A stretch of 37,551 bases of DNA from an uncultured Acidobacteriota bacterium. GTDB taxonomy: Bacteria; Acidobacteriota; UBA6911; CAINFC01. Under the pieces are notes generated by a model. It worked only from the letters and a program-made list of their open reading frames with translations. It made no database searches and had not been told where the DNA came from. Shown here in pieces: positions 18,663-32,425 of this stretch; position 1 is the stretch's first letter; the number at the start of each line of letters is the position of its first letter. The DNA lies in the NCBI GenBank assembly GCA_903847975.1, contig CAINFC010000038.1, forward strand, positions 1-37,551, written 5' to 3'. The position numbers and the translations under genes were made by a program.

Positions 18663-18691
18663 TTGACACTTCCGCCGGGTGTCGTTACAAT
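18663..18691 (+). promoter_or_regulatory. Near-consensus sigma70 promoter for the GAF-PP2C / STAS / kinase unit
   Basis: A perfect TTGACA (18663-18668) is followed by a 17-nt spacer and TACAAT (18686-18691). Transcription is expected near 18698. This rules out the in-frame GTG at 18679 as a start and points to the ATG at 18796, leaving a leader of about 98 nt. It is one of the best promoter matches in the window and suggests housekeeping expression of the partner-switching trio. Confidence 0.75.
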
Positions 18692-18795
18692 CTGCCGTTG
18701 ATCGGAAGTGGGGAGAGCAGCCCTGGCGGCTTTTGCGCCCCGAAGAACTGACCCGGTTCCCTCGCGGGCCGTTGCCAATAGGAGTGCAGTACCCA

Positions 18796-20400
18796 ATGAC
18801 CACCGGTTTCGACCTGACCCGTCTCGAGGCGCTTTTGGAGTCGGCCCAACTCCTGCAAAGTTCCCTGGAACTGAAGCCCATACTGAAGCATCTGCTGCGA
18901 ACCGTCATGGGACGCCTGCCGGCGCTGCGCGGGATGATTGCCGTGTGCCGTCGGGAAGGCGGATCCAGGGTGGAGCTGGTCCGGGGTGCCGCCGCCTTGA
19001 CGGAAGGAAGTGTTTTCCATGAGGATTCCGCGCGGCAGGCAGGCATGGTACTTTTTTTCCCGATCGGCTCGCCTTCGGAGCCGGTAGGCGTGCTGGGCGT
19101 CGGGGGCCTGCCGTCGGCCGTAAAGCCGGAAGAAGCGGAGTTTATCGAAGCGCTTCTTGGGCTGGCGGCCAGCGTGATTTCCAATGCGCAGGCCCACGAG
19201 CAGGCTCATATTGCCAACCGGCTGCTCGACCAGCGCCTGCAGGAGCTGCGGGCCTTGCTGGACCTGGGGCGGGGCCTGGCGGCGGCCTTCGATCCCGAGG
19301 AGGTGGCCCGGCTGGTGGGCTACACCCTGGCGGGCCGATGGGCTATCTCCCGATACACCGTGGCTGCCTGGAAGGAAAATCATCCCTCCGTCCTCCGACA
19401 GAAAGGCATGACTCCGGGCGATTGGCCGGCACTGCAGGAGAAGTACGGCGCGTGTGTCGAGGCCCGGTTGACTCCGGAGGGAGGGCTGGTGCTGCCGATT
19501 CGCTCCCGGGAGTCGCCAATCGGCCTGCTGGTCTGCGGACCCCGTATGCCGGGGGTGGATTACGGGGAAGCGGACTTGGAGTTCGGTGCCGGTCTGGCGG
19601 CCCAGGCGGCAGTGGCCTTCGAGAAAGCCTGGCACCTTCAGGATATGCTGGCGCGGCAGCAGCTGGAAAAGGAGCTGGAGCTGGCCGCTGGCATTCAGCG
19701 CGATCTTTTCCCCTCCTCTTTGCCTTCGCTGGCCGGATGGGATGTTGCCGCACGGAATCGCCAGGCCCGGCAGGTCGGTGGAGACTATTACGACGTGCTT
19801 CCCTTTGCCGGGACCGGGCCGGAAGATCCCCACCTGCTGTGCGTCGCGGATATCTCCGGAAAAGGAATCGCCGCGGCCTTGCTGATGAGCACCCTGCAGG
19901 CGACGCTGCGATCCCTGTTGCGCCGTGAATCTTCCCTGGTGGAACTGGCCTCCATAACCAATGAACTGTTGTATGCCACCACACCGGCCAACAAATATTC
20001 CACCGCATTCCTGTGTGCCGTGCAACCCCGCACCGGAGAGTGCCGCTACGTCAACTGCGCTCATAATGCCGCTTTGCTGCTGCGCGCCGGAGGCGAAGTG
20101 GAGCTGCTGGACGGCCCGGGCTTCGCCCTGGGGCTTTTTCCGATGCGCACCCACCAGGAAAGGGAATTTGCCATGCAACCCGGCGACATCCTCGCACTCT
20201 ACAGCGACGGAGTGATCGAAGCGCAGAATCCGTCCGACGAGCAGTTCGAAATCGAGCGAATGAAGAGCTGCTTGCGGGAGAATGCCGGCGGAACCGCCGC
20301 GGAAATCGTGGATCGCCTGTTCGAGGCCATCGATGCCTTTGCCGCGGGCGCCCCTCAATATGACGACATTACCCTGATGATCGTAAAGAGAAATGACTGA
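18796..20400 (+). CDS. GAF-GAF-PP2C (SpoIIE/RsbU-type) serine phosphatase
   Basis: This 534-residue soluble protein has two GAF-like regions (about 10-155 and 180-325), a short helical linker (LARQQLEKELELAAGIQRDLFP, which resembles the RsbU linker) and a SpoIIE-type PP2C phosphatase domain (about 345-534). Metal-binding motifs are intact: VGGDYYDV, ADISGKGIAAAL, YSDGVIEA and YDDITLMIV. By family knowledge it would dephosphorylate a STAS antagonist, most simply the one encoded next. The start is the ATG at 18796, with AGGAGTG about nine bases upstream and a promoter further upstream. Signals reach it probably through the GAF domains; the ligand is unknown. Confidence 0.9.
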   Translation: MTTGFDLTRLEALLESAQLLQSSLELKPILKHLLRTVMGRLPALRGMIAVCRREGGSRVELVRGAAALTEGSVFHEDSARQAGMVLFFPIGSPSEPVGVLGVGGLPSAVKPEEAEFIEALLGLAASVISNAQAHEQAHIANRLLDQRLQELRALLDLGRGLAAAFDPEEVARLVGYTLAGRWAISRYTVAAWKENHPSVLRQKGMTPGDWPALQEKYGACVEARLTPEGGLVLPIRSRESPIGLLVCGPRMPGVDYGEADLEFGAGLAAQAAVAFEKAWHLQDMLARQQLEKELELAAGIQRDLFPSSLPSLAGWDVAARNRQARQVGGDYYDVLPFAGTGPEDPHLLCVADISGKGIAAALLMSTLQATLRSLLRRESSLVELASITNELLYATTPANKYSTAFLCAVQPRTGECRYVNCAHNAALLLRAGGEVELLDGPGFALGLFPMRTHQEREFAMQPGDILALYSDGVIEAQNPSDEQFEIERMKSCLRENAGGTAAEIVDRLFEAIDAFAAGAPQYDDITLMIVKRND

Positions 20401-20519
20401 CGGACACAATTCGGCCGGTGCGTTCCATGGAATCTTATTAATAAAACCGGGCGATCGGCCAACCTTATTCATACCGCAGGCAGCTCCGGGTTGTCTGCTT
20501 TTTCCGCCGGGAGGACACT

Positions 20520-20882
20520 TTGGTAAGAAATTTAGTACTGCACATCAGCCAGATCGACGGGATCGCGGTGATCGCTCTCGAAGGATTCCTCGATGCCCAT
20601 ACCGCCCCGCAGTTCGAGGAAGCGATTCAAAGCGAGATCGACGCCGGGCGCCGCAATATTGTCGTGGATTGCGCCCGTCTGCTGTATATTTCCTCGGCGG
20701 GGTTAGGCGTGTTTATGGGTTTTATCGGAGAGCTTCGCGAGACGGGCGGAGATATTAAAATATGCGGCGTTGCTGCCCCGCGGGTCCTGCAGCTCTTCGA
20801 AGTCAGCGGATTCAAGGACCTGTTCGGCCTGGCCGCGGATCTGCCCGCCGCCGTGGCCCTGTTCCGGGAAAAAGATAAGTGA
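20520..20882 (+). CDS. STAS-domain anti-sigma factor antagonist (RsbV/SpoIIAA type)
   Basis: This is a 120-residue single STAS domain. The segment RLLYISSAGLGVFMGF carries the phosphorylation loop; S59 in SAGL is the likely phosphorylated serine. The start is TTG at 20520, supported by GGGAGGA five to six bases upstream; no ATG fits better. In the family, the unphosphorylated form binds the anti-sigma kinase and frees its client. It lies between the PP2C phosphatase and the kinase, the classical gene order. The 119-nt gap before it shows no promoter I trust. Confidence 0.92.
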   Translation: MVRNLVLHISQIDGIAVIALEGFLDAHTAPQFEEAIQSEIDAGRRNIVVDCARLLYISSAGLGVFMGFIGELRETGGDIKICGVAAPRVLQLFEVSGFKDLFGLAADLPAAVALFREKDK

Positions 20883-20889
20883 GGCGGAG

Positions 20890-21375
20890 ATGAATGATTT
20901 CGGGCGTTGCTTCGAGCTGCGCGTTCGGTCATCGACGGAAAACCTGGCCCTGATCCGGGACTTCGTCGGAAATGTGGCCCGGCAGGGCGGCCTGAGCGAG
21001 AGCGATCTTTCCCTGGTCGAGCTGGCCGTGGACGAAGCCGGGGCCAACGTGATGGAACACGCCTATGGCGGGGACCCGACCAGGGAAGTCGTGGTTCGTG
21101 TCCGGCTTGATGCCGACGCCATTACCATCGAGATGCTCGACACCGGCCGGGGGTTCGATCCGGCCGCCGTCGAGCAAAAGGATTTGCAGAAACTGGTCGC
21201 CGAAGGGGCCCGCGGAGGGCTGGGGATGCGCTTGATGAAGCGGGCAATGGATGAGGTTCAATACCGGTCCGTGCCGGGAGGGCGGAACGAGCTGCGCATG
21301 GTGAAAAAACTCGGCAAGCCGCCGGGCCCGGAAACGACCGAAGAAGACCGGAAATCCGGCGGGAAAGGTGTTTGA
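20890..21375 (+). CDS. RsbW-like anti-sigma serine kinase
   Basis: This 161-residue protein has the GHKL-type ATPase fold of the RsbW/SpoIIAB group (HATPase_c_2). The N-box is in ELAVDEAGANVMEHAYGG with N53, the G1 box in DTGRGFDP with D84, and the G2 box in GGLGMRLMKRAMDEV. It would phosphorylate the STAS protein encoded seven bases upstream and, when not bound to it, hold a target. The start at 20890 is preceded by GGCGGAG. No sigma factor gene is adjacent, so the client is unknown. It is the last gene of the plus unit and faces the minus-strand cluster across a 96-nt gap. Confidence 0.92.
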   Translation: MNDFGRCFELRVRSSTENLALIRDFVGNVARQGGLSESDLSLVELAVDEAGANVMEHAYGGDPTREVVVRVRLDADAITIEMLDTGRGFDPAAVEQKDLQKLVAEGARGGLGMRLMKRAMDEVQYRSVPGGRNELRMVKKLGKPPGPETTEEDRKSGGKGV

Positions 21376-21471
21376 CGGGGGGGCAGGCCGCGAAAAGGAA
21401 TGAGGATGCCGTTCGCCGTTTCCGATTCCGGCGCGGACCTTTTTATCGTCCGGCGGTGCGGTCCCTGATTC

Positions 21472-21846
21472 CTAGGCTCCCTCGATCGTGGGCATCAGCT
21501 TGCGCAAGGTTCCCAGCATTTTAGACTGCCAGCTGTATTCGGAACTGGTCATCAGGCGCAGCTTGGTGCCGCTGCTGCGCGCGGACAAGGCAACCCCGGC
21601 GAAAAGATTGATGCCCGAAGAGTTGAGCAGCTTGAGCTGGCGCACGTCCAAAGTCAGAACTCCGGTCGGCCCGATGGCCTCCACGGCAGCGCGCACCATG
21701 GACTTAATTTCGTCGTAGGAGTTCAGGCGCAGCGTTCCCCCAAACGTCACCGTCCCGGTTGCACGGCTGAATCGCACCAGGTATTCCGGCCCCGAAACAA
21801 CCGGGTCTGTTTCCGGACCCGCGGTGGAGTGATTTCCCTCATTCAT
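21472..21846 (-). CDS. STAS-like regulator (possibly Slr1659-type)
   Basis: This 124-residue protein has a short variable N-terminus and a STAS-like domain: LTLDVRQLKLLNSSGINLFAGV contains the phospho-loop serines, and the tail SSEYSWQSKMLGTLRKLMP matches the tails of the STAS proteins at 26834-27175 and 25037-26224. This is different from the classical antagonist at 20520. From memory the pattern recalls the cyanobacterial Slr1659 group, which pairs with an atypical ATPase; that link is tentative. The start at 21846 has AGAAGGG upstream. It is the last gene of the seven-gene minus unit, directly after its probable ATPase partner. Confidence 0.85.
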   Translation of the reverse strand: MNEGNHSTAGPETDPVVSGPEYLVRFSRATGTVTFGGTLRLNSYDEIKSMVRAAVEAIGPTGVLTLDVRQLKLLNSSGINLFAGVALSARSSGTKLRLMTSSEYSWQSKMLGTLRKLMPTIEGA

Positions 21847-21928
21847 GATATTAACCCTTCTTTTTCTTCCTTGGAAAAGTCGTGCCCAACCCGGCATCGG
21901 CCTGCAGCTCTCCGCCCGGTATATCTCC

Positions 21929-22495
21929 CTAAAAAACCGAAGCCGTGAGCCTGGCGCTTACCGACACGCGGCCCGGATGGGCAGGCTCGCCGGACTCAAA
22001 CCGCCAGGATAAATCCGCTCCGTGGTGGATCATCATCGTCAAAAACCCCAATCCCGAAACCTTGGCCTCGGGATGAGCTTCGTTGTGTTCCATGGTCGCA
22101 AAAAACTTCTCCTCCAAAGAGCTCTCACCGTCGAACAGCTTCTGGAGGCTGGCCTTGAATTTTTCCGACTTGGCGGCCTCGATGCGGTTGCTGACCACCA
22201 GGGTCACGGTGTGGCCCTTGGCGCCGGAACAGATTTCAATGCTGCCGCCGCTGCGCTCCTTGATGGCGTTCTCCAGGAGTTCGTTGGCCACGTAGTTGAC
22301 CGAGTCGCCCAATTCCGCCACTTCGCTTTTTTCCAGCTTCTCCAGATCCAGGGTCCCGGTGAGATGTCCCAGATAGCGCGATATCATGTCGCAGTGCGCC
22401 CACCGCGGGTGAAGCTCTTCGTTGAGCCGTATGCGGATCTGCGGATTTTCCTGCGTTATTTGGCCGGTGTAGTTCCGGATATCCTGTATTGCCAT
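21929..22495 (-). CDS. GHKL ATPase-like regulator (possibly Slr1658-type), probable STAS partner
   Basis: This 188-residue protein has an ATPase-like core: VNYVANELLENAIKE (N-box with N76) and VSGLGFLTMMIHHG (a shortened GLG box). A typical D-x-G-x-G box is not visible, so ATP handling may be unusual. The start at 22495 is supported by GGGAGG eight bases upstream; the longer in-frame extension is not. It lies between the Cache-PP2C phosphatase and a STAS gene, the order expected for a partner-switching trio. The protein at 26227-26730 is a diverged relative. The assignment to the Slr1658 group is from memory of the pattern, not from a search. Confidence 0.78.
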   Translation of the reverse strand: MAIQDIRNYTGQITQENPQIRIRLNEELHPRWAHCDMISRYLGHLTGTLDLEKLEKSEVAELGDSVNYVANELLENAIKERSGGSIEICSGAKGHTVTLVVSNRIEAAKSEKFKASLQKLFDGESSLEEKFFATMEHNEAHPEAKVSGLGFLTMMIHHGADLSWRFESGEPAHPGRVSVSARLTASVF

Positions 22496-22548
22496 AACCC
22501 TGCCTCCCTTTGAGCTGTTGTTTTCCGCCGTGCCGCCCACTGTCGGAA

Positions 22549-25005
22549 TTAGGTGACCCGGCGCTTGCAGACCACCAGGGTGATGTCATCCCACACCTTG
22601 GCGGAACCGATGTGTTGACGTACAGCCGCAATGATGGCATCGCGGATCTCCATAGCCCCCGCTCCCCGCGTGTTGCGGGCTATTTCCATCATTCGCTCTA
22701 TCCCGAAAAGATGGCCGGCCCCGTCGTCGGCCTCGGTGATCCCGTCGGTATAAACGATGAGTACATCCCCGGGGTCGAAAGGAATCTCCTGCAGGTTGAA
22801 AAATTCTCCGGCATCCGGAACCAGCCCGATGGATATCCCCAGATCCTGCGTGTCGATCCGCTCCACCTGTCCGTCGCCGCGGATGACCAGCACTTCCTCA
22901 TGCTGTCCGGTGATCGACCATTTCCCCATATGGTAGTCGAGATAGCACATGGTCAGATTCTTGTCGGTACCCATCCGCCTGGTGTTGTTGCAAACCATGC
23001 GGTTGGTCGCCTGGAGCACCTCACAGAGCGGGTGGGGCGAATAGGCGGAGCGGACCGTATCCCGACTCTCGACGGCCTGGGCGTTCAGCACGGCGTTGAC
23101 CGCCGCCTGAACCTGGAGCATCAAAGCTCCGGACTCCAATCCGTGTCCGGTCACATCTCCGATGCCGATTTTCACGTGTTCGTCCGGCAGGAACATCACA
23201 TCGTAATAATCTCCGCCGACTTCATCGGCCGGCTCCATAAAAGCGGCAATGTCGAGAACCGGATGTTGTTCCAAATCCGAGGCTTGCGGCAGGATCATTT
23301 GCTGCAGCCGCCGCGATATGTTCAGCTCGGCGGCCATGCGCGAGTTTTCCTCTCGAAGGCGCTCGGCCTCCGCCAGGTTGGCCGCCATTTCGTTGAAAGC
23401 CTGACCGAGCTGCCCGATCTCATCCTTGGTCTTGATCTGGCAGCGTACCGCATAGTCCTTCAGCGTAATGAGCTTTACTGCTTCATGAACCTGCTTGAGA
23501 CCCTGCCCCAGCGAATTGGCCATGGTCCGCACTACCAGAACTCCCAGGCTGGAAAAAACAAGAAGGAGGATCAAAGACATCTGCACCGACGCATAGGTTG
23601 CATTTTCGATCTGGGCGGTGGCCTCTTCGATCTGCTTTTGGGTGTCGGTCAGGATCCGGAACAGTTCGGCTTTCGGAACGGCCAGGCCCAGCAGCCACTG
23701 CGCGCGGGCCACTTTCTTTCCCGCTTCCGCCCAATAATTCATCGGCGCCAGACGCCGCATCAGAATAATGTAATCCTCCTTCGGTCCGGCGGCGCGCTGC
23801 ACGGTGCAGGTTTCCAGGGTGTAGTCGGTCGGCCCGGGGAATTTGAGCGCCCGAATGGTCGGCTGCGTGCTTTGGGTCAGGTAACGATTGAGTACGCTTA
23901 CTCCGCTGCCGGACCCTTTTTGCATCGTCAATCCTAAAATTTCCTCGGCGATGGGGGGCGCCGCCACCACATTCCCGTCCGGGGCCGCCAGAAAGGCAAA
24001 GCCGGTGTCGGCCAGCTTCACATCGCTGATCAGCCGCCGGGTCTGCTCGAGGGTCACGTCGATGGCCACGGCCCCCTGGCTTCCCTTGCGGTCCTTGCTC
24101 CACAGCGGGTAGAAATAGGTGACAATCTCGTTTCCCGTGCAGGCATCCTGGTACGGATAACTCACCGTGGTGTACTCCCCGCGCACCGGAACGGATTCCG
24201 GATCTCGGGCCCATTCATCCCACGACTGCAGGCAGCCGTCGAAATAAAACGGCCAGAAAGCGTGCGTGTTGTGTCCCGGATAGAGGCGATCGAAATTCTG
24301 AGCCTGCGGCAGCCACGGCGTGAGCCGCATAATCGGGGCGCGCGGAGCGCCGATCTGATAAACCTGAAGCTTGGGATTGCCGGACTTGAGAATGGCCGGA
24401 CCATAAAAATCAAAAACCGCCGTCTCCCGCACGTCTTTCATGACGTCCGGGCGAACCGGTTTGTCCGGGCCGGGCTCCAGCAGATACCCCCATACCGACA
24501 GAACCGAGGCGTCATCAGGCGGTGTCTGCCGCCAGCCTCCGATCTTGTAGGTTTCCTTGGTGGCCAGGGGCTGGCCCATGATCGATTTATCGGTGGTGAT
24601 TTCCGCAGGAGGCTGGTAGATCAGCTTGTCGTTCCACTCCGGCAGTTTTTCGGCTATACGGCCCAGCTGCTCCCGCGCCTGATCATGGTCGATGAGCCAC
24701 TGGGAAAGATTGGCCGTAATGGTCGCCTCCCGGAAGGTGGTCTGAAATAGAACGTCGACCCGTGATGCCACCGAGGCCGAATAGTTGTTCATCGCCTGGG
24801 TGGTTTCTTTGGTCAACCCGTCCGCAATGGTTTCTGTGGCTTTCCGGCCAAGGTTGCGAACGTTGGCCACGGCCGCCCTGCCCGCCCAGATCGACAGCGC
24901 AGCCGAGGATGCCATGGCTACCACCAGCACCCCCAACATGGAGGCCAGCAGTTTTTTGCGAAAGGACCAGCGGATGGTCTCGTTTTGGTGCTGCATTTTA
25001 TTCAT
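22549..25005 (-). CDS. Membrane Cache-HAMP-PP2C (SpoIIE-type) sensor phosphatase
   Basis: This is an 818-residue protein. Transmembrane helix 1 is at about 18-42, a large extracytoplasmic double-Cache sensor at about 45-470, helix 2 at about 472-495, then HAMP (about 495-545), a coiled coil and a SpoIIE-type PP2C domain (about 575-818). Metal motifs are complete: VGGDYYDV, GDVTGHG, YTDGITEA and WDDITLVV. It would turn an outside signal into dephosphorylation of STAS proteins. The Cache part (AIDVTLEQ, AAPPIAEEILGL) is clearly related to that of the kinase at 1883-4267 ([20 protein letters not shown]). No good ribosome site precedes 25005; an ATG three codons later is equally possible. It sits in the middle of the seven-gene minus unit. 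Confidence 0.9.
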   Translation of the reverse strand: MNKMQHQNETIRWSFRKKLLASMLGVLVVAMASSAALSIWAGRAAVANVRNLGRKATETIADGLTKETTQAMNNYSASVASRVDVLFQTTFREATITANLSQWLIDHDQAREQLGRIAEKLPEWNDKLIYQPPAEITTDKSIMGQPLATKETYKIGGWRQTPPDDASVLSVWGYLLEPGPDKPVRPDVMKDVRETAVFDFYGPAILKSGNPKLQVYQIGAPRAPIMRLTPWLPQAQNFDRLYPGHNTHAFWPFYFDGCLQSWDEWARDPESVPVRGEYTTVSYPYQDACTGNEIVTYFYPLWSKDRKGSQGAVAIDVTLEQTRRLISDVKLADTGFAFLAAPDGNVVAAPPIAEEILGLTMQKGSGSGVSVLNRYLTQSTQPTIRALKFPGPTDYTLETCTVQRAAGPKEDYIILMRRLAPMNYWAEAGKKVARAQWLLGLAVPKAELFRILTDTQKQIEEATAQIENATYASVQMSLILLLVFSSLGVLVVRTMANSLGQGLKQVHEAVKLITLKDYAVRCQIKTKDEIGQLGQAFNEMAANLAEAERLREENSRMAAELNISRRLQQMILPQASDLEQHPVLDIAAFMEPADEVGGDYYDVMFLPDEHVKIGIGDVTGHGLESGALMLQVQAAVNAVLNAQAVESRDTVRSAYSPHPLCEVLQATNRMVCNNTRRMGTDKNLTMCYLDYHMGKWSITGQHEEVLVIRGDGQVERIDTQDLGISIGLVPDAGEFFNLQEIPFDPGDVLIVYTDGITEADDGAGHLFGIERMMEIARNTRGAGAMEIRDAIIAAVRQHIGSAKVWDDITLVVCKRRVT

Positions 25006-25036
25006 TGAAAGAAGGGCGTTTCCTTGTTGTCTGGCG

Positions 25037-26224
25037 CTAGGTTCCGCGCTGAGGTTTCTTCCCTATTCCGGCCCATACCGGCCAGGTTGCATAGCCGTTG
25101 GGCCGCAGAATCGCCTGCTGGTGGTCACGAAATCCCTGGCGCAACCGATCCAGGTAGTTCCCGTCGCTGCCTTTTTTGCTGGCCCAGCGGCAGTAGCTCT
25201 CCTCCCAGCTCCGGATGACCTCGGCAAACTCTTCCCGCACGCGGGGGTGGCCGCCGTCATCCTCGGTAGATACCACAAACTGGACATTGCGCACATCCTG
25301 GAGTCCGGAGGCCATCATCATCGCTTTTTGCTTCGGCCCCAGTTCGATGTCCATCTTGAAATGCGCCCATATCAGGGCCACCTGGTTATAAGTCCATTGG
25401 ATCGATTCTCCAAAGGGCTCCCCAAGGCAGTGAGAATTCTTCTCGTTGGTCACATATACCGTACCGCCAGGCTTGCAAATGCGTACGATCTCACTGAGAA
25501 TCTCCATGGGGCGATCGAAGACCTGCAGGGAATGCCGGCAGAAAACCACATCAAAAGTGTCGTCCGGAAGGAGCAGCGAAGCGGCATCCCCCACCTGGAA
25601 CTCAATGCCGTCCACCCCGAACTCCTCGGCCATCGCCCGGGCGTAATCCAGGGATCGTTTGGCATGGTCTACGGCAACCAGCCGTCCGGGTGAAAATGTT
25701 TTTTTGAGGTGCATGGCGAAATCCCCGATGCCGCAGCAGATATCGGCAACCGCGGCACCGGGCTTGAGAATACCTTCCACGAGGCTCTTTTCATGGCGCC
25801 AGGTCATCTTGGTCTGCGCCCGAAGGGCCGACACGAAGGCCCCATCCTCAAAAAGACTCTGGCCGGGATAAAAATCCTGGTCGTAGGTCTCCACCAATAT
25901 GTTCTCGTGCAACTGCTGCAGAGGCGCCAGCCGGGGGTAGGACCACGGAATCACGCTGGTGGTCACCACGCGAAATTTCTTCCCGGGGTTCTCTCTGGCA
26001 ACTTTCTGCAGGGTGCAGGCCAGCATCTGCAAGCCCATGGTGTTGAGCGCCGTAAGTCTTTTGGCGGCGATATAGAGAACCTTTCCGGGCGATGCCGCGC
26101 CTCGGGAAATGGCCTCCTCGACCGCGCGTGTCTCGGGCCCCGGCCCGACCGGCTGCAGCGCGCCCTTCAGATGAACCTGTTGGTCGTGTTCGTCGTACCA
26201 TACGGAAAATGCGGTTGTGCTCAT
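25037..26224 (-). CDS. STAS-methyltransferase fusion protein
   Basis: This 395-residue two-domain protein starts with a STAS-like domain (about 1-112). The segment TALNTMGLQMLACTL stands where its neighbours have LLNSSGIN, so both loop serines are replaced (T62, M63). The tail (TTSVIPWSYPRLAPLQQL) matches the paralogues at 21472 and 26834. The C-terminal half is a class I SAM-dependent methyltransferase: motif I VADICCGIGD (159-168), VAVDHAKRSLDYARAMA, a DDTFDVVFCRHSLQVF segment, and KPGGTVYVTNEKN. Its ribosome site (GGAGGAA) lies in the last codons of the upstream gene, two bases away. By inference the STAS part docks with a partner-switching protein and so ties methylation to the switch. 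The methylated substrate is unknown. Confidence 0.85.
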   Translation of the reverse strand: MSTTAFSVWYDEHDQQVHLKGALQPVGPGPETRAVEEAISRGAASPGKVLYIAAKRLTALNTMGLQMLACTLQKVARENPGKKFRVVTTSVIPWSYPRLAPLQQLHENILVETYDQDFYPGQSLFEDGAFVSALRAQTKMTWRHEKSLVEGILKPGAAVADICCGIGDFAMHLKKTFSPGRLVAVDHAKRSLDYARAMAEEFGVDGIEFQVGDAASLLLPDDTFDVVFCRHSLQVFDRPMEILSEIVRICKPGGTVYVTNEKNSHCLGEPFGESIQWTYNQVALIWAHFKMDIELGPKQKAMMMASGLQDVRNVQFVVSTEDDGGHPRVREEFAEVIRSWEESYCRWASKKGSDGNYLDRLRQGFRDHQQAILRPNGYATWPVWAGIGKKPQRGT

Positions 26225-26226
26225 GG

Positions 26227-26730
26227 CTATTCCTCCATCACCCGGTGGAGCGAAGCGTCCAGGCCGACCCGCATCTGGCCCAGATCGCGGACGGCAAGGC
26301 TGACTTTGTGGACCACCGTAAGCTCGATGAGCGACAAAAGCGTGGGAGCCGCTTCTTCCCGCCCCAGCAGTTCCAGGTACTGGTTCATTCCGGCGAGGCG
26401 GGCCTGCTCCACTTCCGAAACAATTCGCCGGACATTATCTCCGGCGTCGAATTCCAATTGAAAAAAGATTCCGCCCTCTGGAGCGCCGGCATTTACCTTC
26501 AACGTCCCGGCGCATCTTCCGGTCCGAAAGGCCAGTTCGAAAAGCTCATTGGTGATCGAAGAAACCTGCGAGGCGAAGCGCTGAGAGTCGGGGCTGTCGA
26601 GGGAAAGGACCTGCGCCACCAGGTTGGCCGTGTCGGAACAGGTGCTCCATCGGGACTGGAATGCGCTCCCCACCATCTCGATTTCAAACCACGATTTTTC
26701 CATTGGAGTTGTTGCTATTGTTTCTGTCAT
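26227..26730 (-). CDS. Degenerate GHKL ATPase-like protein
   Basis: This 167-residue protein has no strong family signature on its own. VSSITNELFELAFR aligns with VNYVANELLENAIK of the ATPase at 21929-22495, and the surrounding helices match in length. The key N-box asparagine is replaced by L66, and no glycine-rich ATP box is visible. It therefore probably binds its STAS partner without hydrolysing ATP. The start at 26730 has GGAG about ten bases upstream; a longer in-frame version overlaps the preceding STAS gene and is less likely. It lies between a STAS gene and the STAS-methyltransferase gene. Confidence that it is coding is high; the fold assignment is moderate. Confidence 0.7.
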   Translation of the reverse strand: MTETIATTPMEKSWFEIEMVGSAFQSRWSTCSDTANLVAQVLSLDSPDSQRFASQVSSITNELFELAFRTGRCAGTLKVNAGAPEGGIFFQLEFDAGDNVRRIVSEVEQARLAGMNQYLELLGREEAAPTLLSLIELTVVHKVSLAVRDLGQMRVGLDASLHRVMEE

Positions 26731-26833
26731 ATCCGTACCGTCTCCTTCGATGGCATTGATTGGCTTGTATGGTTCCCGGCTGACGGAAAGAAAAAGTGCG
26801 GTCCGGTTCAGCCAGGCAAAGGTATGCGCCCGA

Positions 26834-27175
26834 TCAATCAATGACCAGGTTCAGCGCTGGAAATAGCTTCTTCAAGTTCGGGAGCGACTTCCCCTGCCAG
26901 GGGATTTCCTTACTCCCATGGATAGTCAAGTCGGTCCCTTTCCCATTTCGCACCCCGATAACGAACTTGGCAATGACATTGATACCGGAACTGTTCAGCA
27001 ACTCCAGGCCGGTGAGGTCGATCGTAAGCCCCGCCGGAATGGCTGCCAGAGAATCGTTCAGAATAAGGGTCATATTATCATACTGATCATTGGAAAGGCG
27101 AAAGGTTCCGGTCAGGAAGACGGTCTTTTTATAAGTGTCCAACCAGATCTTGGCATTATCAGTCGTGAATTCCAT
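26834..27175 (-). CDS. STAS-like regulator (possibly Slr1659-type), second copy
   Basis: This 113-residue single domain contains TIDLTGLELLNSSGINVIAKFVIG with intact loop serines. Its tail SKEIPWQGKSLPNLKKLFP aligns with the STAS protein at 21472-21846. It is the second gene of the minus unit, 36 nt after the coiled-coil PP2C gene and 103 nt before the degenerate ATPase. The order phosphatase-STAS-ATPase repeats in this unit. AAGGA precedes the ATG. It is expected to be the phosphorylatable switch of the upstream half of the unit. Confidence 0.87.
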   Translation of the reverse strand: MEFTTDNAKIWLDTYKKTVFLTGTFRLSNDQYDNMTLILNDSLAAIPAGLTIDLTGLELLNSSGINVIAKFVIGVRNGKGTDLTIHGSKEIPWQGKSLPNLKKLFPALNLVID

Positions 27176-27211
27176 TTCATTCGTCCTTACATTCGATTAA
27201 AGCTCAGTCGA

Positions 27212-28141
27212 TCAAAGATCAACCAGGAAAATGGAGAAATCATCTTCAAAAGCGTCACATCCCTGGACCTTGCGCAGGTCGGCAATCAGGTCATCCAGCT
27301 GATAGGAACTTCCGCGGGGCATTTGGGCAAGGTACCGGGCCAGATCCTCCAGATCCAGCATGTCGGATTGATTGTGCTTCTGGATTTCGTAGGTGCCGTC
27401 GCTGAAGACGAAAAGCCGTCCGTCCGGCGGAACAATGCAGGATTGCATTTCATAGGTGATATCGGGCATTCCGCCGACGATAAGCTGCCGGGTTACGAGT
27501 TCTTTTACGGTGACGTTTCCCTCGCTGCCGGCGACCAGCAGGGCCGGAGGGTGTCCGCCGCTGGCGAATTTCAACACGCGGGTGGAAGGCTGGAAAACCC
27601 CGTACCACAGGGTGAAATACATGTTGTTCTGCTTGGACATGTCGAAGGCGTTGTTCATTCCGGTCAGGGCCTGCCCCGGATCCCGCATGTCGACGTTGGG
27701 CAAGCCGCCCGTGCGCAGGACGTTGATGGCGGTGACGGAAAGGAGGGCGGCCCCGACACCGTGGCCGCAGACGTCCAGCAGGTACATGGCAAAGTGGTCC
27801 GGATCGATCCAGTGGTATCCGAACGAGTCGCCCCCCAATTCCGAGGAGGGGATATATTTCCACTGGGTCACGGGATAATCCGACGAGGGTGCCGGAATGA
27901 TCGACTGAACGTAATTGGCGGCGTCACGCAGCTCGTGGGCCAGCCGTTTCTGCATGCGTTCCAGCTCGGCGTTTCGATCGGCCAGCTGGTCTTCAATGGC
28001 AACACCGTGTTCCATCATGTTTTCGTACATGAGGTTCATGTCTGCCAGCTCGTTTCGCAGGCGCTCGTTCTCTTCTTCAAGTCGAGCGACCTGTTCGGGC
28101 AGCGAACACGGATTTTGCGCCGCACCGGCTTCCGTAACCAT
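27212..28141 (-). CDS. Coiled-coil PP2C (SpoIIE-type) serine phosphatase
   Basis: This 309-residue protein has a long N-terminal coiled coil (about 20-90; LEEENERLRNELAD and repeats) and a SpoIIE-type PP2C domain (about 100-309). Motifs are ELGGDSFGYHWID, LLDVCGHGVGAALL, FSDGTYEI and the final DDFSIFLVDL, so the metal-binding acidic residues are kept. No receiver, GAF or membrane domain is present; the coiled coil may be the docking part. I chose the ATG at 28141, nine bases after AGGAGG; an ATG two codons earlier is possible. It is the first gene of the seven-gene minus unit and has a near-consensus promoter. Confidence 0.88.
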   Translation of the reverse strand: MVTEAGAAQNPCSLPEQVARLEEENERLRNELADMNLMYENMMEHGVAIEDQLADRNAELERMQKRLAHELRDAANYVQSIIPAPSSDYPVTQWKYIPSSELGGDSFGYHWIDPDHFAMYLLDVCGHGVGAALLSVTAINVLRTGGLPNVDMRDPGQALTGMNNAFDMSKQNNMYFTLWYGVFQPSTRVLKFASGGHPPALLVAGSEGNVTVKELVTRQLIVGGMPDITYEMQSCIVPPDGRLFVFSDGTYEIQKHNQSDMLDLEDLARYLAQMPRGSSYQLDDLIADLRKVQGCDAFEDDFSIFLVDL

Positions 28142-28203
28142 ATTCATCTTCCTCCTCAGACGATTGACAGGCAATATATTTTTGCGCTCAATCCCGGTGG
28201 CAA

Positions 28204-28232
28204 ATATTAGATTATTGCGGAGTCAAAGTCAA
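28204..28232 (-). promoter_or_regulatory. Sigma70-type promoter of the seven-gene partner-switching unit
   Basis: On the minus strand TTGACT (28232-28227) is followed by exactly 17 nt and TAATAT (28209-28204). Transcription would start near 28197, about 50-55 nt before the ATG choices of the coiled-coil PP2C gene. TTGACT is directly repeated (28226-28221), but only the outer copy has the right spacing. Within the unit the gaps are 2-103 nt and I saw no second promoter of this quality. Confidence 0.7.
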
Positions 28233-28519: not shown

Positions 28520-31500
28520 TCAGCCGAGCCACTCCTGCATCAGGTAGCGGATCACGCGGTACAGGCTGACCGGCATGGGAAACGTGGCCGGGTTGTAGCT
28601 TCTCACCCCGGCAAATTCCGAAGGATGGTTCAGCAGGATCAGCACGCGGTGGGCCTGGGGCTTTTCCTGTGCCGCCAGCCGCTCGAAGCTCCGGAAATCG
28701 GCAATCAGAAAATCGGCCTCGCGCGGCGGCTGCTTTTCGCGGACCTCGAACCAGGGGAAAATCCTGCGGATCTGATCGCGGAGAAGGGCCAATACTCCTT
28801 TGTTTTCCAGCCAGACGCAGAAAGCCCGGTATTCCGCGGTTCGGCCGCGCGCCATGGCTTCCAGCAGCGGAAAGCGGAAATCGCGGCGGCGGCTTCCTTC
28901 CGATTCCGGCTCTTCCCCGAGGCCCTCCTTGAGCCGTGCCGCGATTTTTTGCTGCGCCAGACAGGCGGCATGAGGCTGGGAGACCAGGAAACGCTCCAGG
29001 GCTTCCCACGGAATCGAGGCCGGGCTGAGGATCAGTTCCAGGCCTTTAAGGGCCGATTCCAGGCTTTTCACTTCTTCCAGCTGGACGGGAAGGTAGTCCC
29101 GGCATTTTTTCAACTCCGCGGATTCCTCCGCGCCGAGCCCTTCGGACCGCTGCTTTTGCAGAAGGTTCAGGGTTTCCTGAAACACGGAGAAGGTAACCAT
29201 GTCCTGGCACCGCCAGCGCTGGGCGCTGCGAAAAAGTGCGCTGAAGTCTTCGCGGAAGGGGCCGCTGGCCAGTTCCCGGTAGAAGGCCATGAAATTCGGA
29301 CGGGACGGATCCCCGAGCTGCAGAACCGGTTCGAATTCCAGCAGCCGGAAAAGGAGGTCCGCCCGGGCGCGCAGCTGGCCGGGGCTCCAGCTGGCCGGCA
29401 GCGGCCGGGCGAAAAAGCGGTGCAGCGCCTCCAGCGGAAACAGCCGGGCAACGGCGGAAAAATATCCGGGGGAGACGTCCTGAAACCGGTTTTCGAATTC
29501 CGGCTGGAACAGGGCCCGGCCATTTTCGAAATCGAAATTGGCGCGCATCTGATCCATGGCGGCCTGGCATATTTCTTCATCCGGCGAAGAGAGCAGCTCC
29601 CCGATGCGCTCCCGGAAGCCGGCGTAATTCTCGGCGGGAATGTGGGAGAGCAGGTGGAGAAGGGAAATGCGGTCCAGCCGGGGCATTTTTTCGACCAGCC
29701 GGGCAGTGGCTTCAGGCTGACGGAGCAGGGCGGCCAGGATTTTATCCCGGACAGGGCTTCTCTTTTCCCATTCCTCAAGCAAAAAAAGGCGGCCCTGCGC
29801 ATGGGAGGCCAGCGGCTCCAGCAGGGATTCCCGCAAATCGGGGCGATCCTGGGAAATCCGGATGGCCTCCTGGACAAAATTCCCCTGAGGATTTTTCATC
29901 AGGATCGGCAGCAGCAACGTCCGGGTGGAAAGGTCGGGATTTTTTTCATAAACCGGCCGGATATCTCCATCCATTGCCGACGCTGCGGCCGGATGCCGGG
30001 AAATGTACCGGTAAAGGTGGGCCAGCAGTGGCTTGGGAGGAGGTGCCGGGCCCTCTGCAGCGCCCTGCCAGAGGGCCAGCTCCCTGCGGGCGAAGCGGAC
30101 GATGGCCTCCTCTTCGGCGGGTCCGCCTTTTTCGCACAGCAGTTCGAAGGCCCCCATCCGGACCATGGGATCCTCCGCCTCGTCGAGATAGGCGGCAAAC
30201 ACTGCCAGGTTCGGCGCCTGGACTGCCTTCCGGAGCAAACGCATGGCGGCCTGGAAGGCCCGGGGATCCTTTTGCCCCAGCAGAAACTGCGGGATCAGGC
30301 CGAGGAAGGGAAGCCTCTCCTTCAGACGCAGGATTTCCCCTTGCACGAACCGGGTCAGGAAGGAATTGCGTACCCTCTCAAGCAGGACGGTCAGCGATTG
30401 CAGCGCCCGGTCGTCGTCCATGGCGGCGATGGCCTGGATGGCCTGCTTGCGGACCTGAATCGGAAAAGCGAGGCGCTCCGCGGCCGCCTGCAGCGGGGGC
30501 AGATGGCAGCCTTTCGGCCCGCGGCTCAAGGCATCGACCGCCAGGGCGACGAGGCGGTGCCCGGCAGGAGCCGTTTCCAGAAACCGGCAGATGTCTTTTG
30601 CCCCCGGCTCCCCCTGCGCTTCGAGGGCTTCCAGAAACCGGCGGGAAAAAACCTCTTCGGACCAGTCGACACCGGCTTCCAGCAGCTCCGCGACACGGAG
30701 AGCGGGGGGCGTATGGGCCCGCTCCGGAATCGCCAGGATTTCGGCCAGCATGCTTTCCCGGCGGGGATCCTGCACACCCGGCCGGATTCTTTCCAGGTCG
30801 GCCCGGCCGATGGAAGCCAGGTCCGGAAATCTCCGGAAATAGTCCCGCAGGCAGACGAGAGCCGATTCCGCCTCCGCGGCGTCGGAGGCCTCCGGGGAGG
30901 CGGCAAGGGAGTCCAGCGATTTCCGGCAGTGGTGCCAGATCATCGGCAGGGCATCGCGGCCGGCGGAAGAAGTGAGAATTCGCAAGGCACCCTGTCGTAT
31001 CTTTTCCGACGGGTGCATCAGAAATTCATAAAAAATCGGGGCATCCGCCGGTTTGAGAATCTTCTGCAACGTCTCCACGGCCGCCGGGAAAGACGCCTCT
31101 TCCCGGTCGTTGAGAAATCGCGGCAGCAGGGAAAGGATCGGATCATCCTGGCGGATCCGGGAAATGGCCTGCCCGATTTCTTCGATCAGCCGGGGGTCGG
31201 ATATTTTCCGCAGGTGACGGTCGAGAATCTGGAAGGCGGTCCGGTCACTGTATTTCGAAACGGCGACCAGGGCTTCCTTGGCGGTATGAAAGTCCGGGCT
31301 CTGTTCGATCGTCCTGCGGAGCACTTCCAGAAAAGAGGGAGCATGAACATATCCAGCTGTCCGAATAACCTGGAGGCGGATCTCGGCTGCGACCTCCGGC
31401 GATCCGATCAGCTCGGAAAAGACTTCCGCCGTCTCCCGGAAGGTGGGGGATCCCGAGCGGAACAGCTGTTCCAGCCGGTTCCGGAATTCCCGATCGCCCA

Positions 31501-32425
31501 GGGAGGAAAATTCGCGGACCAGTCCGAAGGCCGCCCGGCGGATCTCGTCGCGGACCCGGGCGTCCGCGCCCCAGGCAGAGGGACCGGATGGGGGCGGCGC
31601 TTCCCGCTCGATTCCCAGGGTGGACAGGGTCGAATCCAGCTTCCGTTCCTCGTAGGGCTTGAGCAGGAATCCGGAGCATCCCGCCTGCAGCGCACGGAGA
31701 ATGATATCCCTTTCGCTTCGGGAGGTGGTCAGGACAGCGCGGGGTGCCCCGGCTTTCAGGATCTGCTGCTGCTGCAGGATCCGCAGCCTGGCGAGGAGGG
31801 AGAAACCGTCCATGTCTCCCAGATCCAGCTCCAGAAGCACCAGGTGAAAGCGGATGGAATCCTCTCCGGAGGCTTTTAGCTTTTGAACGGCCAACCGTCC
31901 GTCGCGGGCCACCTCAACCTGCCCGAGCGAGGAGAGGTGCCGGCGTAAAAACTCCGTGGATTCCCGGTCCGCGTCCACGATCAGGCTGTTGAGGATCGGA
32001 AAAAAGCCCTCCAGGACGGGCTCCATCCGGCTCGGGTCGAAAGGCCGGGGCAGGCACGCGCAGCCGGCAGCCCCGGCCGATAGCAGCCGCTGTTTTTCCG
32101 CCGGCCCGGCGAACAGAACGACCCTGGCGGGAAGAAAACGATGGGAGTAGACCGGCAGGCTTTCGGCTTCCCTCATGCGGGATAAGGTTTCCATGCCCGG
32201 CTGGTCGGGAAGTTCCTGGCTCAGGACGATCAGCCGGTACGCCTGGCCGGACTGCATGGCCGCAATGTGAAGATGCAGAGCCTGCTCCCCGCCCTCGGCG
32301 ACGTCGCACCGGCCGAACGGCGACAGGAAGGCCCGCATCGCTTCCCGCTCCGGCGATTCCGGAAACACGATCAGCGCACGACGGCTTCCTGCCTTCCAGG
32401 ATGCCGGATGAATCTCCTGTTCCAT
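28520..32425 (-). CDS. Giant protein with two dead receiver domains and a HEAT-like solenoid
   Basis: This 1301-residue protein has no signal peptide. Residues about 15-140 form a receiver-like domain in which the phosphoacceptor position is S69 (LIVLSQELPDQPG), and the acidic pair is lost. Residues about 146-270 form a second receiver with a retained acidic site (LIVDADRES), E199 in place of the aspartate (LLELDLGDMDG) and K256. From about 300 to 1150 the chain is a run of paired helices resembling HEAT repeats. The last 65 residues (FLIADFRSFERL, then HRVLILLNHPSEF) look like part of another receiver. It is probably a scaffold that integrates signals by binding. It follows two lipoprotein genes with a 9-nt gap and lies upstream of the partner-switching unit. 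I know of no named family. Confidence 0.8.
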   Translation of the reverse strand: MEQEIHPASWKAGSRRALIVFPESPEREAMRAFLSPFGRCDVAEGGEQALHLHIAAMQSGQAYRLIVLSQELPDQPGMETLSRMREAESLPVYSHRFLPARVVLFAGPAEKQRLLSAGAAGCACLPRPFDPSRMEPVLEGFFPILNSLIVDADRESTEFLRRHLSSLGQVEVARDGRLAVQKLKASGEDSIRFHLVLLELDLGDMDGFSLLARLRILQQQQILKAGAPRAVLTTSRSERDIILRALQAGCSGFLLKPYEERKLDSTLSTLGIEREAPPPSGPSAWGADARVRDEIRRAAFGLVREFSSLGDREFRNRLEQLFRSGSPTFRETAEVFSELIGSPEVAAEIRLQVIRTAGYVHAPSFLEVLRRTIEQSPDFHTAKEALVAVSKYSDRTAFQILDRHLRKISDPRLIEEIGQAISRIRQDDPILSLLPRFLNDREEASFPAAVETLQKILKPADAPIFYEFLMHPSEKIRQGALRILTSSAGRDALPMIWHHCRKSLDSLAASPEASDAAEAESALVCLRDYFRRFPDLASIGRADLERIRPGVQDPRRESMLAEILAIPERAHTPPALRVAELLEAGVDWSEEVFSRRFLEALEAQGEPGAKDICRFLETAPAGHRLVALAVDALSRGPKGCHLPPLQAAAERLAFPIQVRKQAIQAIAAMDDDRALQSLTVLLERVRNSFLTRFVQGEILRLKERLPFLGLIPQFLLGQKDPRAFQAAMRLLRKAVQAPNLAVFAAYLDEAEDPMVRMGAFELLCEKGGPAEEEAIVRFARRELALWQGAAEGPAPPPKPLLAHLYRYISRHPAAASAMDGDIRPVYEKNPDLSTRTLLLPILMKNPQGNFVQEAIRISQDRPDLRESLLEPLASHAQGRLFLLEEWEKRSPVRDKILAALLRQPEATARLVEKMPRLDRISLLHLLSHIPAENYAGFRERIGELLSSPDEEICQAAMDQMRANFDFENGRALFQPEFENRFQDVSPGYFSAVARLFPLEALHRFFARPLPASWSPGQLRARADLLFRLLEFEPVLQLGDPSRPNFMAFYRELASGPFREDFSALFRSAQRWRCQDMVTFSVFQETLNLLQKQRSEGLGAEESAELKKCRDYLPVQLEEVKSLESALKGLELILSPASIPWEALERFLVSQPHAACLAQQKIAARLKEGLGEEPESEGSRRRDFRFPLLEAMARGRTAEYRAFCVWLENKGVLALLRDQIRRIFPWFEVREKQPPREADFLIADFRSFERLAAQEKPQAHRVLILLNHPSEFAGVRSYNPATFPMPVSLYRVIRYLMQEWLG

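Follow-up and report, generated by a model that had tools for sequence, protein, structure and literature searches.

What does a partner switch control when the enzyme it is known to regulate is missing from its locus? The question is raised by contig CAINFC010000038.1 of an uncultured Acidobacteriota bacterium (assembly GCA_903847975.1), analyzed here over 37,551 nucleotides (nt), which we call the window. Between positions 18679 and 28174, open reading frame (ORF) listing and family scans place ten genes in a row, g1 to g10, encoding three SpoIIE-type phosphatases, four STAS domains, three proteins of the switch-kinase fold and one methyltransferase. In partner switches, PP2C phosphatases and switch kinases set STAS phosphorylation, and in the classical RsbW/SpoIIAB case one protein is both the kinase and the sequestering partner. 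An original prediction from the sequence of the window had described ten consecutive partner-switching genes, three on the plus and seven on the minus strand and none encoding a sigma factor; all ten were recovered by ORF listing, Pfam, NCBIfam and fold search, and no sigma factor is among them. The minus-strand genes (21472-28174) include the gene set of a switch known from root-nodule bacteria, to which the host of the window is only very distantly related; the order is almost unchanged, and the cyclase that this switch is known to control is missing.

Gene order and homology point to a Bgr-type switch

We searched with g7, the STAS-methyltransferase gene of the minus-strand unit, over one genome per species and then over plasmid records, and examined 17 rhizobial loci (L040-L056). 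The species scan gave three Rhizobiales loci with 46-48% identity over the entire protein, all with the order g8-g7-g6-g5-STAS, and strong matches were found in 120 further plasmid records, all from rhizobia or near relatives. The gene order is conserved in distant genomes, which supports the original prediction: the five-gene order is kept in 16 of the 17 rhizobial loci, and along its full length g7 is 45-49% identical. The exception is L055, a further copy on Sinorhizobium meliloti GR4 plasmid pRmeGR4c (9021-15494) with a divergent bgrR, where kinase and STAS genes were not found after g6 in the stretch examined.

The Bgr genes of root-nodule bacteria are a known on/off switch for the production of sticky polysaccharide, and Baena et al. 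in 2019 reportedly described BgrSTUWV as a partner switch controlling the diguanylate cyclase BgrR in S. meliloti. On S. meliloti 1021 pSymB and in its annotated copy CP140944, an EAL/GGDEF gene precedes the core, and by gene order and gene types this locus is the BgrSTUWV system, a published relative that the original prediction had not recognized; the single letters are our presumed assignments, made by order. The window genes g8-g7-g6-g5-g4 follow the S-T-U-W-V order with homology along each gene, with full-length similarity to the S. meliloti proteins of about 47% for g7 and about 41% for g6, and 45% for the STAS protein g9. According to citing papers, the BgrU/BgrW phosphatase/kinase couple sets the phosphorylation of BgrV and through it the activity of BgrR (PMC7647112, PMC8457831). 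The corresponding active-site and phosphosite residues are intact in the window sequence. The window differs from the S. meliloti system in having no adjacent GGDEF-EAL cyclase gene bgrR, in carrying g10 and g9 as extra genes in the same transcription unit, and in belonging to another phylum. Because the five-gene order recurs in 16 of 17 rhizobial loci, the minus-strand cluster is, on comparative grounds, a Bgr-type partner switch and not a chance grouping.

Surface-polymer genes were noted near several rhizobial loci: an AraC regulator with uridine diphosphate (UDP)-sugar and glycosyltransferase genes in S. meliloti (L056, 23742-30735), the cellulose synthase gene bcsA in Rhizobium sp. CC-CFT758 (L044, 15403-17559) and curlin/csgH in Rhizobium sp. 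CCGE532 (L047, 295-6647). A literature search on the S. meliloti locus tags and on partner switching with a STAS-methyltransferase returned nothing relevant.

Loci carry either bgrR or g10

The bgrR gene adjoins the core in 14 of the 17 rhizobial loci. The other three (L040, L041 and L045) have no bgrR and carry an orthologue of g10 (45-49% identity) divergently upstream of the core. Across 18 loci, these 17 and the window, the two genes are mutually exclusive, with never both and never neither. The window has g10 and no GGDEF gene in the neighborhood, and in a tree of g7 plus g6 it groups with the g10-bearing loci (split support 1.0). In the window configuration, bgrR is replaced by g10. Two g10 relatives examined elsewhere in the phylum (L087 and L088) look like receiver-domain phosphatases and are without the Bgr core.

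No cyclase gene was found within the stretch examined in the g10-bearing loci. Across the whole genome to which the window belongs, the N-terminal region of BgrR, before the GGDEF domain, had no match and no full-length BgrR was found; GGDEF matches number 15, one of them GGDEF-EAL like BgrR.

The minus unit pairs a probable live kinase with a kinase fold that has lost its nucleotide-site residues

SpoIIE domains were found in g1, g6 and g10, and both minus-strand phosphatases have intact metal-binding Asp motifs (in g10, GGD, LDVCGHG, SDG and DDF). The predicted two inputs, one from outside through a Cache domain and one from inside through a coiled coil, agree with a membrane g6 and a cytoplasmic g10. 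Against curated cut-offs of 100 bits for both NF047703 (slr1658 superfamily) and NF047705 (slr1659 superfamily), the kinase g5 scores 112 with the former, and of the free STAS proteins g9 scores 115 and g4 80, below cut-off, with the latter; both STAS proteins are sub-threshold against Pfam STAS. The phosphosite LNSSGIN is kept in all 17 free STAS proteins. Although out of position, g9 (40-48% identical to rhizobial BgrV) is nearer to BgrV than is g4, which is in position and more diverged, a pattern that suggests duplication and divergence.

The remaining kinase-fold protein of the unit, g8, matches no Pfam family and scores 23 bits against the slr1658 superfamily (its homologues, 23-45 bits), so it is not assigned there. 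We aligned 17 g8 and 16 g5 homologues. Every one of the 17 g8 homologues has lost the N-box Asn, a second conserved Asn and SGLG, and every one keeps NExxE; all 16 g5 homologues keep the N-box Asn (NExxEN), the second Asn and SGLG. The N-box Asn and glycine-rich box for Mg-ATP that mark a GHKL switch kinase are therefore missing from g8, and the alignment leads us to infer that, within the minus unit, g5 alone is a live kinase. In a fold search, the AlphaFold model of g8 came closest to SiaB (Z 11.8, 150 residues, 3.7 Å) and then SpoIIAB (Z 10.7), with histidine kinases next, well below. Thus, the three ATPase-like proteins originally predicted hold for g3, for g5 and for the fold of g8, but g8, with its nucleotide-site residues gone, is no ordinary ATPase. 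Homologues of g8 always lie directly 5´ of g7, and we propose that g8 may be a dead kinase paralogue serving as an adaptor that holds g7. A g8 search in 396 genomes of the phylum returned only g8 itself and one marginal match.

Several g8 homologues are publicly annotated as "ubiquinone biosynthesis methyltransferase UbiE" (L056, 15486-16004; L046, 11450-11965; L047, 11489-11995). The S. meliloti 1021 copy has no Pfam match, and the name was probably carried over from the neighboring gene.

The STAS-methyltransferase g7 is the best candidate output

At the center of the minus unit, where a shared enzyme had been predicted, lies the STAS-methyltransferase g7. Its N-terminus scores 33 bits against the slr1659 superfamily, below cut-off, and at the STAS phosphosite most homologues have Asn or Met, two have Ser and the window protein has Thr, so that this domain looks mostly phospho-deaf. 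The methyltransferase motif ADICCGIGDFA is invariant in all g7 homologues, and from one phylum to the other the methyltransferase part retains 52-57% identity compared to 22-35% for the STAS part, a difference that selection on the enzyme activity would explain. Elsewhere in the phylum we found no full STAS-methyltransferase fusion, only good matches to the methyltransferase part, and the neighborhoods of four such unfused relatives had no common context and gave no hint at a substrate. Many class I methyltransferases came up in a PDB search with g7, and the small molecules that they methylate are diverse. Considering its sequence and position, we regard g7 as the best candidate for the output of the window switch.

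A proposed mechanism and its alternatives

Our favored reading, held tentatively, is that the minus unit is a Bgr-type switch without BgrR, with an extra phosphatase (g10) and an extra STAS protein (g9), in which g8 would sequester the methyltransferase g7. Kinase g5 would phosphorylate the free STAS proteins g9 and g4, and the phosphate would be removed by the Cache-phosphatase g6 upon an outside signal and by the coiled-coil phosphatase g10 upon an inside signal. Unphosphorylated g9 and g4 would bind g8, which could not phosphorylate them, and a STAS protein bound to g8 would displace the STAS domain of g7 and free the methyltransferase. The double role of RsbW would be split between paralogues, g5 as kinase and g8 as sequesterer, with one live phosphatase-kinase-STAS cycle driving a dead kinase and a phospho-deaf STAS-methyltransferase. 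Where bgrR is present, BgrR and the methyltransferase could both be outputs of this core. The broader claim, a split switch with the kinase apart from the sequesterer, an effector methyltransferase with a phospho-deaf STAS domain of its own, and the same hidden output in the rhizobial Bgr systems, is possible, and we advance it with more reserve.

Several observations weigh against the favored reading. Because the g10-bearing loci are neighbors in the tree, the exclusion of bgrR and g10 may go back to no more than one or two events in their history. The g8 model has low confidence, with a mean predicted local distance difference test score (pLDDT) of 59 (about 70 over residues 90-200). At the phosphosite, a Ser is kept in two g7 homologues, from R. 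gallicum/R. etli, and a Thr in the window. Finally, the g8-g7 pair is also present in bgrR loci, which would allow the methyltransferase an accessory role, with a cyclase from another place in the genome as the true output; the 15 GGDEF matches in the genome are possible candidates for it.

This last point leads to the best surviving alternative, unlikely in our estimation, in which the Bgr core would continue to act on a diguanylate cyclase, whose gene lies at another place in the genome and which the unphosphorylated STAS protein binds in trans, with the methyltransferase modulating the switch. Published accounts supply precedents in BgrV acting on BgrR in S. meliloti and in HsbA acting on HsbD and SiaC on SiaD in Pseudomonas aeruginosa (PMC8457831, PMC7647112), and one of the 15 GGDEF matches in the genome is of the GGDEF-EAL type, like BgrR. 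However, the region of BgrR before the GGDEF domain is unmatched in the genome, bgrR is beside the core in all 14 loci that have it, and none was found within the stretch examined in g10-bearing loci.

We consider it improbable that the unit comprises two complete partner switches, g10-g9-g8 and g6-g5-g4, converging on g7, as in the two symmetrical half-switches of the original prediction. This arrangement would fit the intact metal sites of both phosphatases and the presence of two free STAS proteins that can be phosphorylated, but rhizobial loci manage the same core with one STAS protein and one live kinase, and g10-g9-g8 is not a complete phosphatase-STAS-kinase trio, since the nucleotide-site residues of g8 are lost throughout its homologues and the adjacent g7 STAS domain is mostly not phosphorylatable. 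Still less probable is that g8 is an atypical enzyme, an ATPase or kinase active through another metal site, with the Thr of the g7 STAS domain as its target; this would account for that Thr and for the first Glu of the N-box (NExxE) kept in 17/17 g8 homologues, but the glycine box is gone, and with Asn or Met at the phosphosite of most rhizobial g7 homologues, phosphorylation by g8 could not be a shared mechanism. That unrelated partner-switching genes came together by chance, in a genome rich in SpoIIE domains (22 matches in 8.1 Mb), is scarcely credible given a five-gene order conserved across phyla and the confinement of every slr1658/slr1659 match above 25 bits in the genome to this single cluster, which contradicts a chance grouping for the minus-strand core and does not cover the plus-strand trio.

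Relation to other partner switches

The SiaABCD system of P. aeruginosa resembles the favored reading in its HAMP-PP2C phosphatase, SiaB-fold kinase, STAS-like antagonist and an enzyme rather than a sigma factor as output. Unlike the slr1659-type STAS antagonists of the window, SiaC is a DUF1987 protein, and g5, at 23.7 bits, falls well short of the 85 set as cut-off for SiaB_fam_kinase; the published description of SiaABCD is without a STAS-methyltransferase, which the window has, and without a degenerate kinase paralogue, which g8 probably is. The SpoIIAB/SpoIIAA/SpoIIE and RsbW/RsbV/RsbU systems share fold and general logic with the window, where g1-g2-g3 is of that type; in contrast to these systems, the window has no sigma factor and the kinase and sequestering roles are apparently split between g5 and g8. 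We know of no methyltransferase fusion among the slr1658/slr1659 regulators of Synechocystis, to which g5 and g9 are alike in exceeding the NCBIfam cut-offs of the two superfamilies. Slr1658 has been studied for recovery from iron limitation (PMC7555055).

In another genome of the phylum (G051; L086, 4674-10627), genes for a Bmp-type binding protein, a Cache-HAMP-SpoIIE protein, an slr1658 kinase, an slr1659 STAS protein and a hybrid histidine kinase lie in a row, and this partner switch may feed a two-component system. Seen alongside Bgr and the window, this arrangement suggests a portable phosphatase-kinase-STAS unit whose output can be exchanged, for a cyclase (Bgr), a histidine kinase (G051) or a methyltransferase (the window).

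Layout of the locus and the plus-strand trio

Coordinates of the ten genes are collected in Table 1. On the minus strand the transcription order is g10, g9, g8, g7, g6, g5, g4, with intergenic distances of 36, -8, 2, 31, 8 and 31 nt; because these genes are 2-36 nt apart or overlapping, all seven likely form one operon. The true start of g8 is probably downstream of the listed TTG, and that of g3 is probably near 20890. The end points proposed for the cluster, 18663 and 28232, coincide with promoter-like sites, and a site scan yields no excess over shuffled sequence. Immediately upstream of g10 and also on the minus strand (28520-32425) lies a gene for a protein of 1301 amino acids (aa) with a Pfam response-regulator receiver and HEAT repeats, a possible input. 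The best plasmid matches to a neighboring TonB-type receptor come from Granulicella and Acidisarcina, which fits an acidobacterial host.

Table 1. Genes of the partner-switching cluster in the window (SAM, S-adenosylmethionine).
Gene	Coordinates	Strand	Product and features	Basis
g1	18679..20400	+	GAF - SpoIIE PP2C phosphatase of classical trio	Pfam
g2	20520..20882	+	STAS antagonist, RsbV/SpoIIAA type	Pfam STAS and NCBIfam
g3	20770..21375	+	HATPase_c_2 switch kinase, RsbW/SpoIIAB type; convergent with g4	family scans
g4	21472..21897	-	slr1659-type STAS, second free one; BgrV position; phosphosite LNSSGIN	NF047705, 80 bits
g5 (BgrW-like)	21929..22540	-	slr1658-superfamily switch kinase; N-box and SGLG box intact	NF047703, 112 bits
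g6 (BgrU-like)	22549..25005	-	Cache - HAMP - SpoIIE PP2C, membrane sensor phosphatase, 818 aa	family scans
g7 (BgrT-like)	25037..26224	-	slr1659-type STAS (1-112) and class I SAM methyltransferase (about 150-395)	family scans, model, fold search
g8 (BgrS-like)	26227..26841	-	SiaB/SpoIIAB-fold protein without nucleotide-site residues	alignment and fold search
g9	26834..27175	-	STAS antagonist, slr1659 superfamily; phosphosite LNSSGIN	NF047705, 115 bits
g10	27212..28174	-	coiled coil and SpoIIE-type PP2C phosphatase, cytoplasmic, 320 aa	Pfam SpoIIE, 122 bits

On the plus strand (18679-21375), g1-g2-g3 are an RsbU/RsbV/RsbW-type trio of adjacent PP2C, ant_ant_sig superfamily STAS and HATPase_c_2 genes. 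By profile search, a classical STAS-HATPase pair lies close to the core in the window and in two rhizobial loci, L041 and L045, at a different place in each, and is absent from L040. The trio may not stand next to the core by chance, since such a pair accompanies two of the three rhizobial loci without bgrR and none of the 14 that have it. Cross-talk between the trio and the minus unit, as originally suggested, gains some support from this distribution and is weakened by L040; on the weaker evidence available here, the two may share an input.

Implications

The cluster is not categorically new; what is likely new is that a configuration without bgrR occurs in another phylum, that a dead kinase is conserved and that a methyltransferase is the probable output. 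A core that lacks the cyclase but has the methyltransferase suggests that the attached methyltransferase is a second, possibly older, output of the Bgr switch. Partner switches have long been viewed as controls of sigma factors and recently as controls of cyclases. The retention of core and methyltransferase with the cyclase dropped points to methylation as a conserved output, outside the S. meliloti model as cited. If the proposed mechanism is true, the dead kinase and its phospho-deaf STAS partner would illustrate a way for the two RsbW-type roles to separate, and outside and inside signals would be coupled to methylation via STAS-driven release of the methyltransferase. S. meliloti, which is grown in the laboratory, carries the same genes, so this reading is directly testable there.

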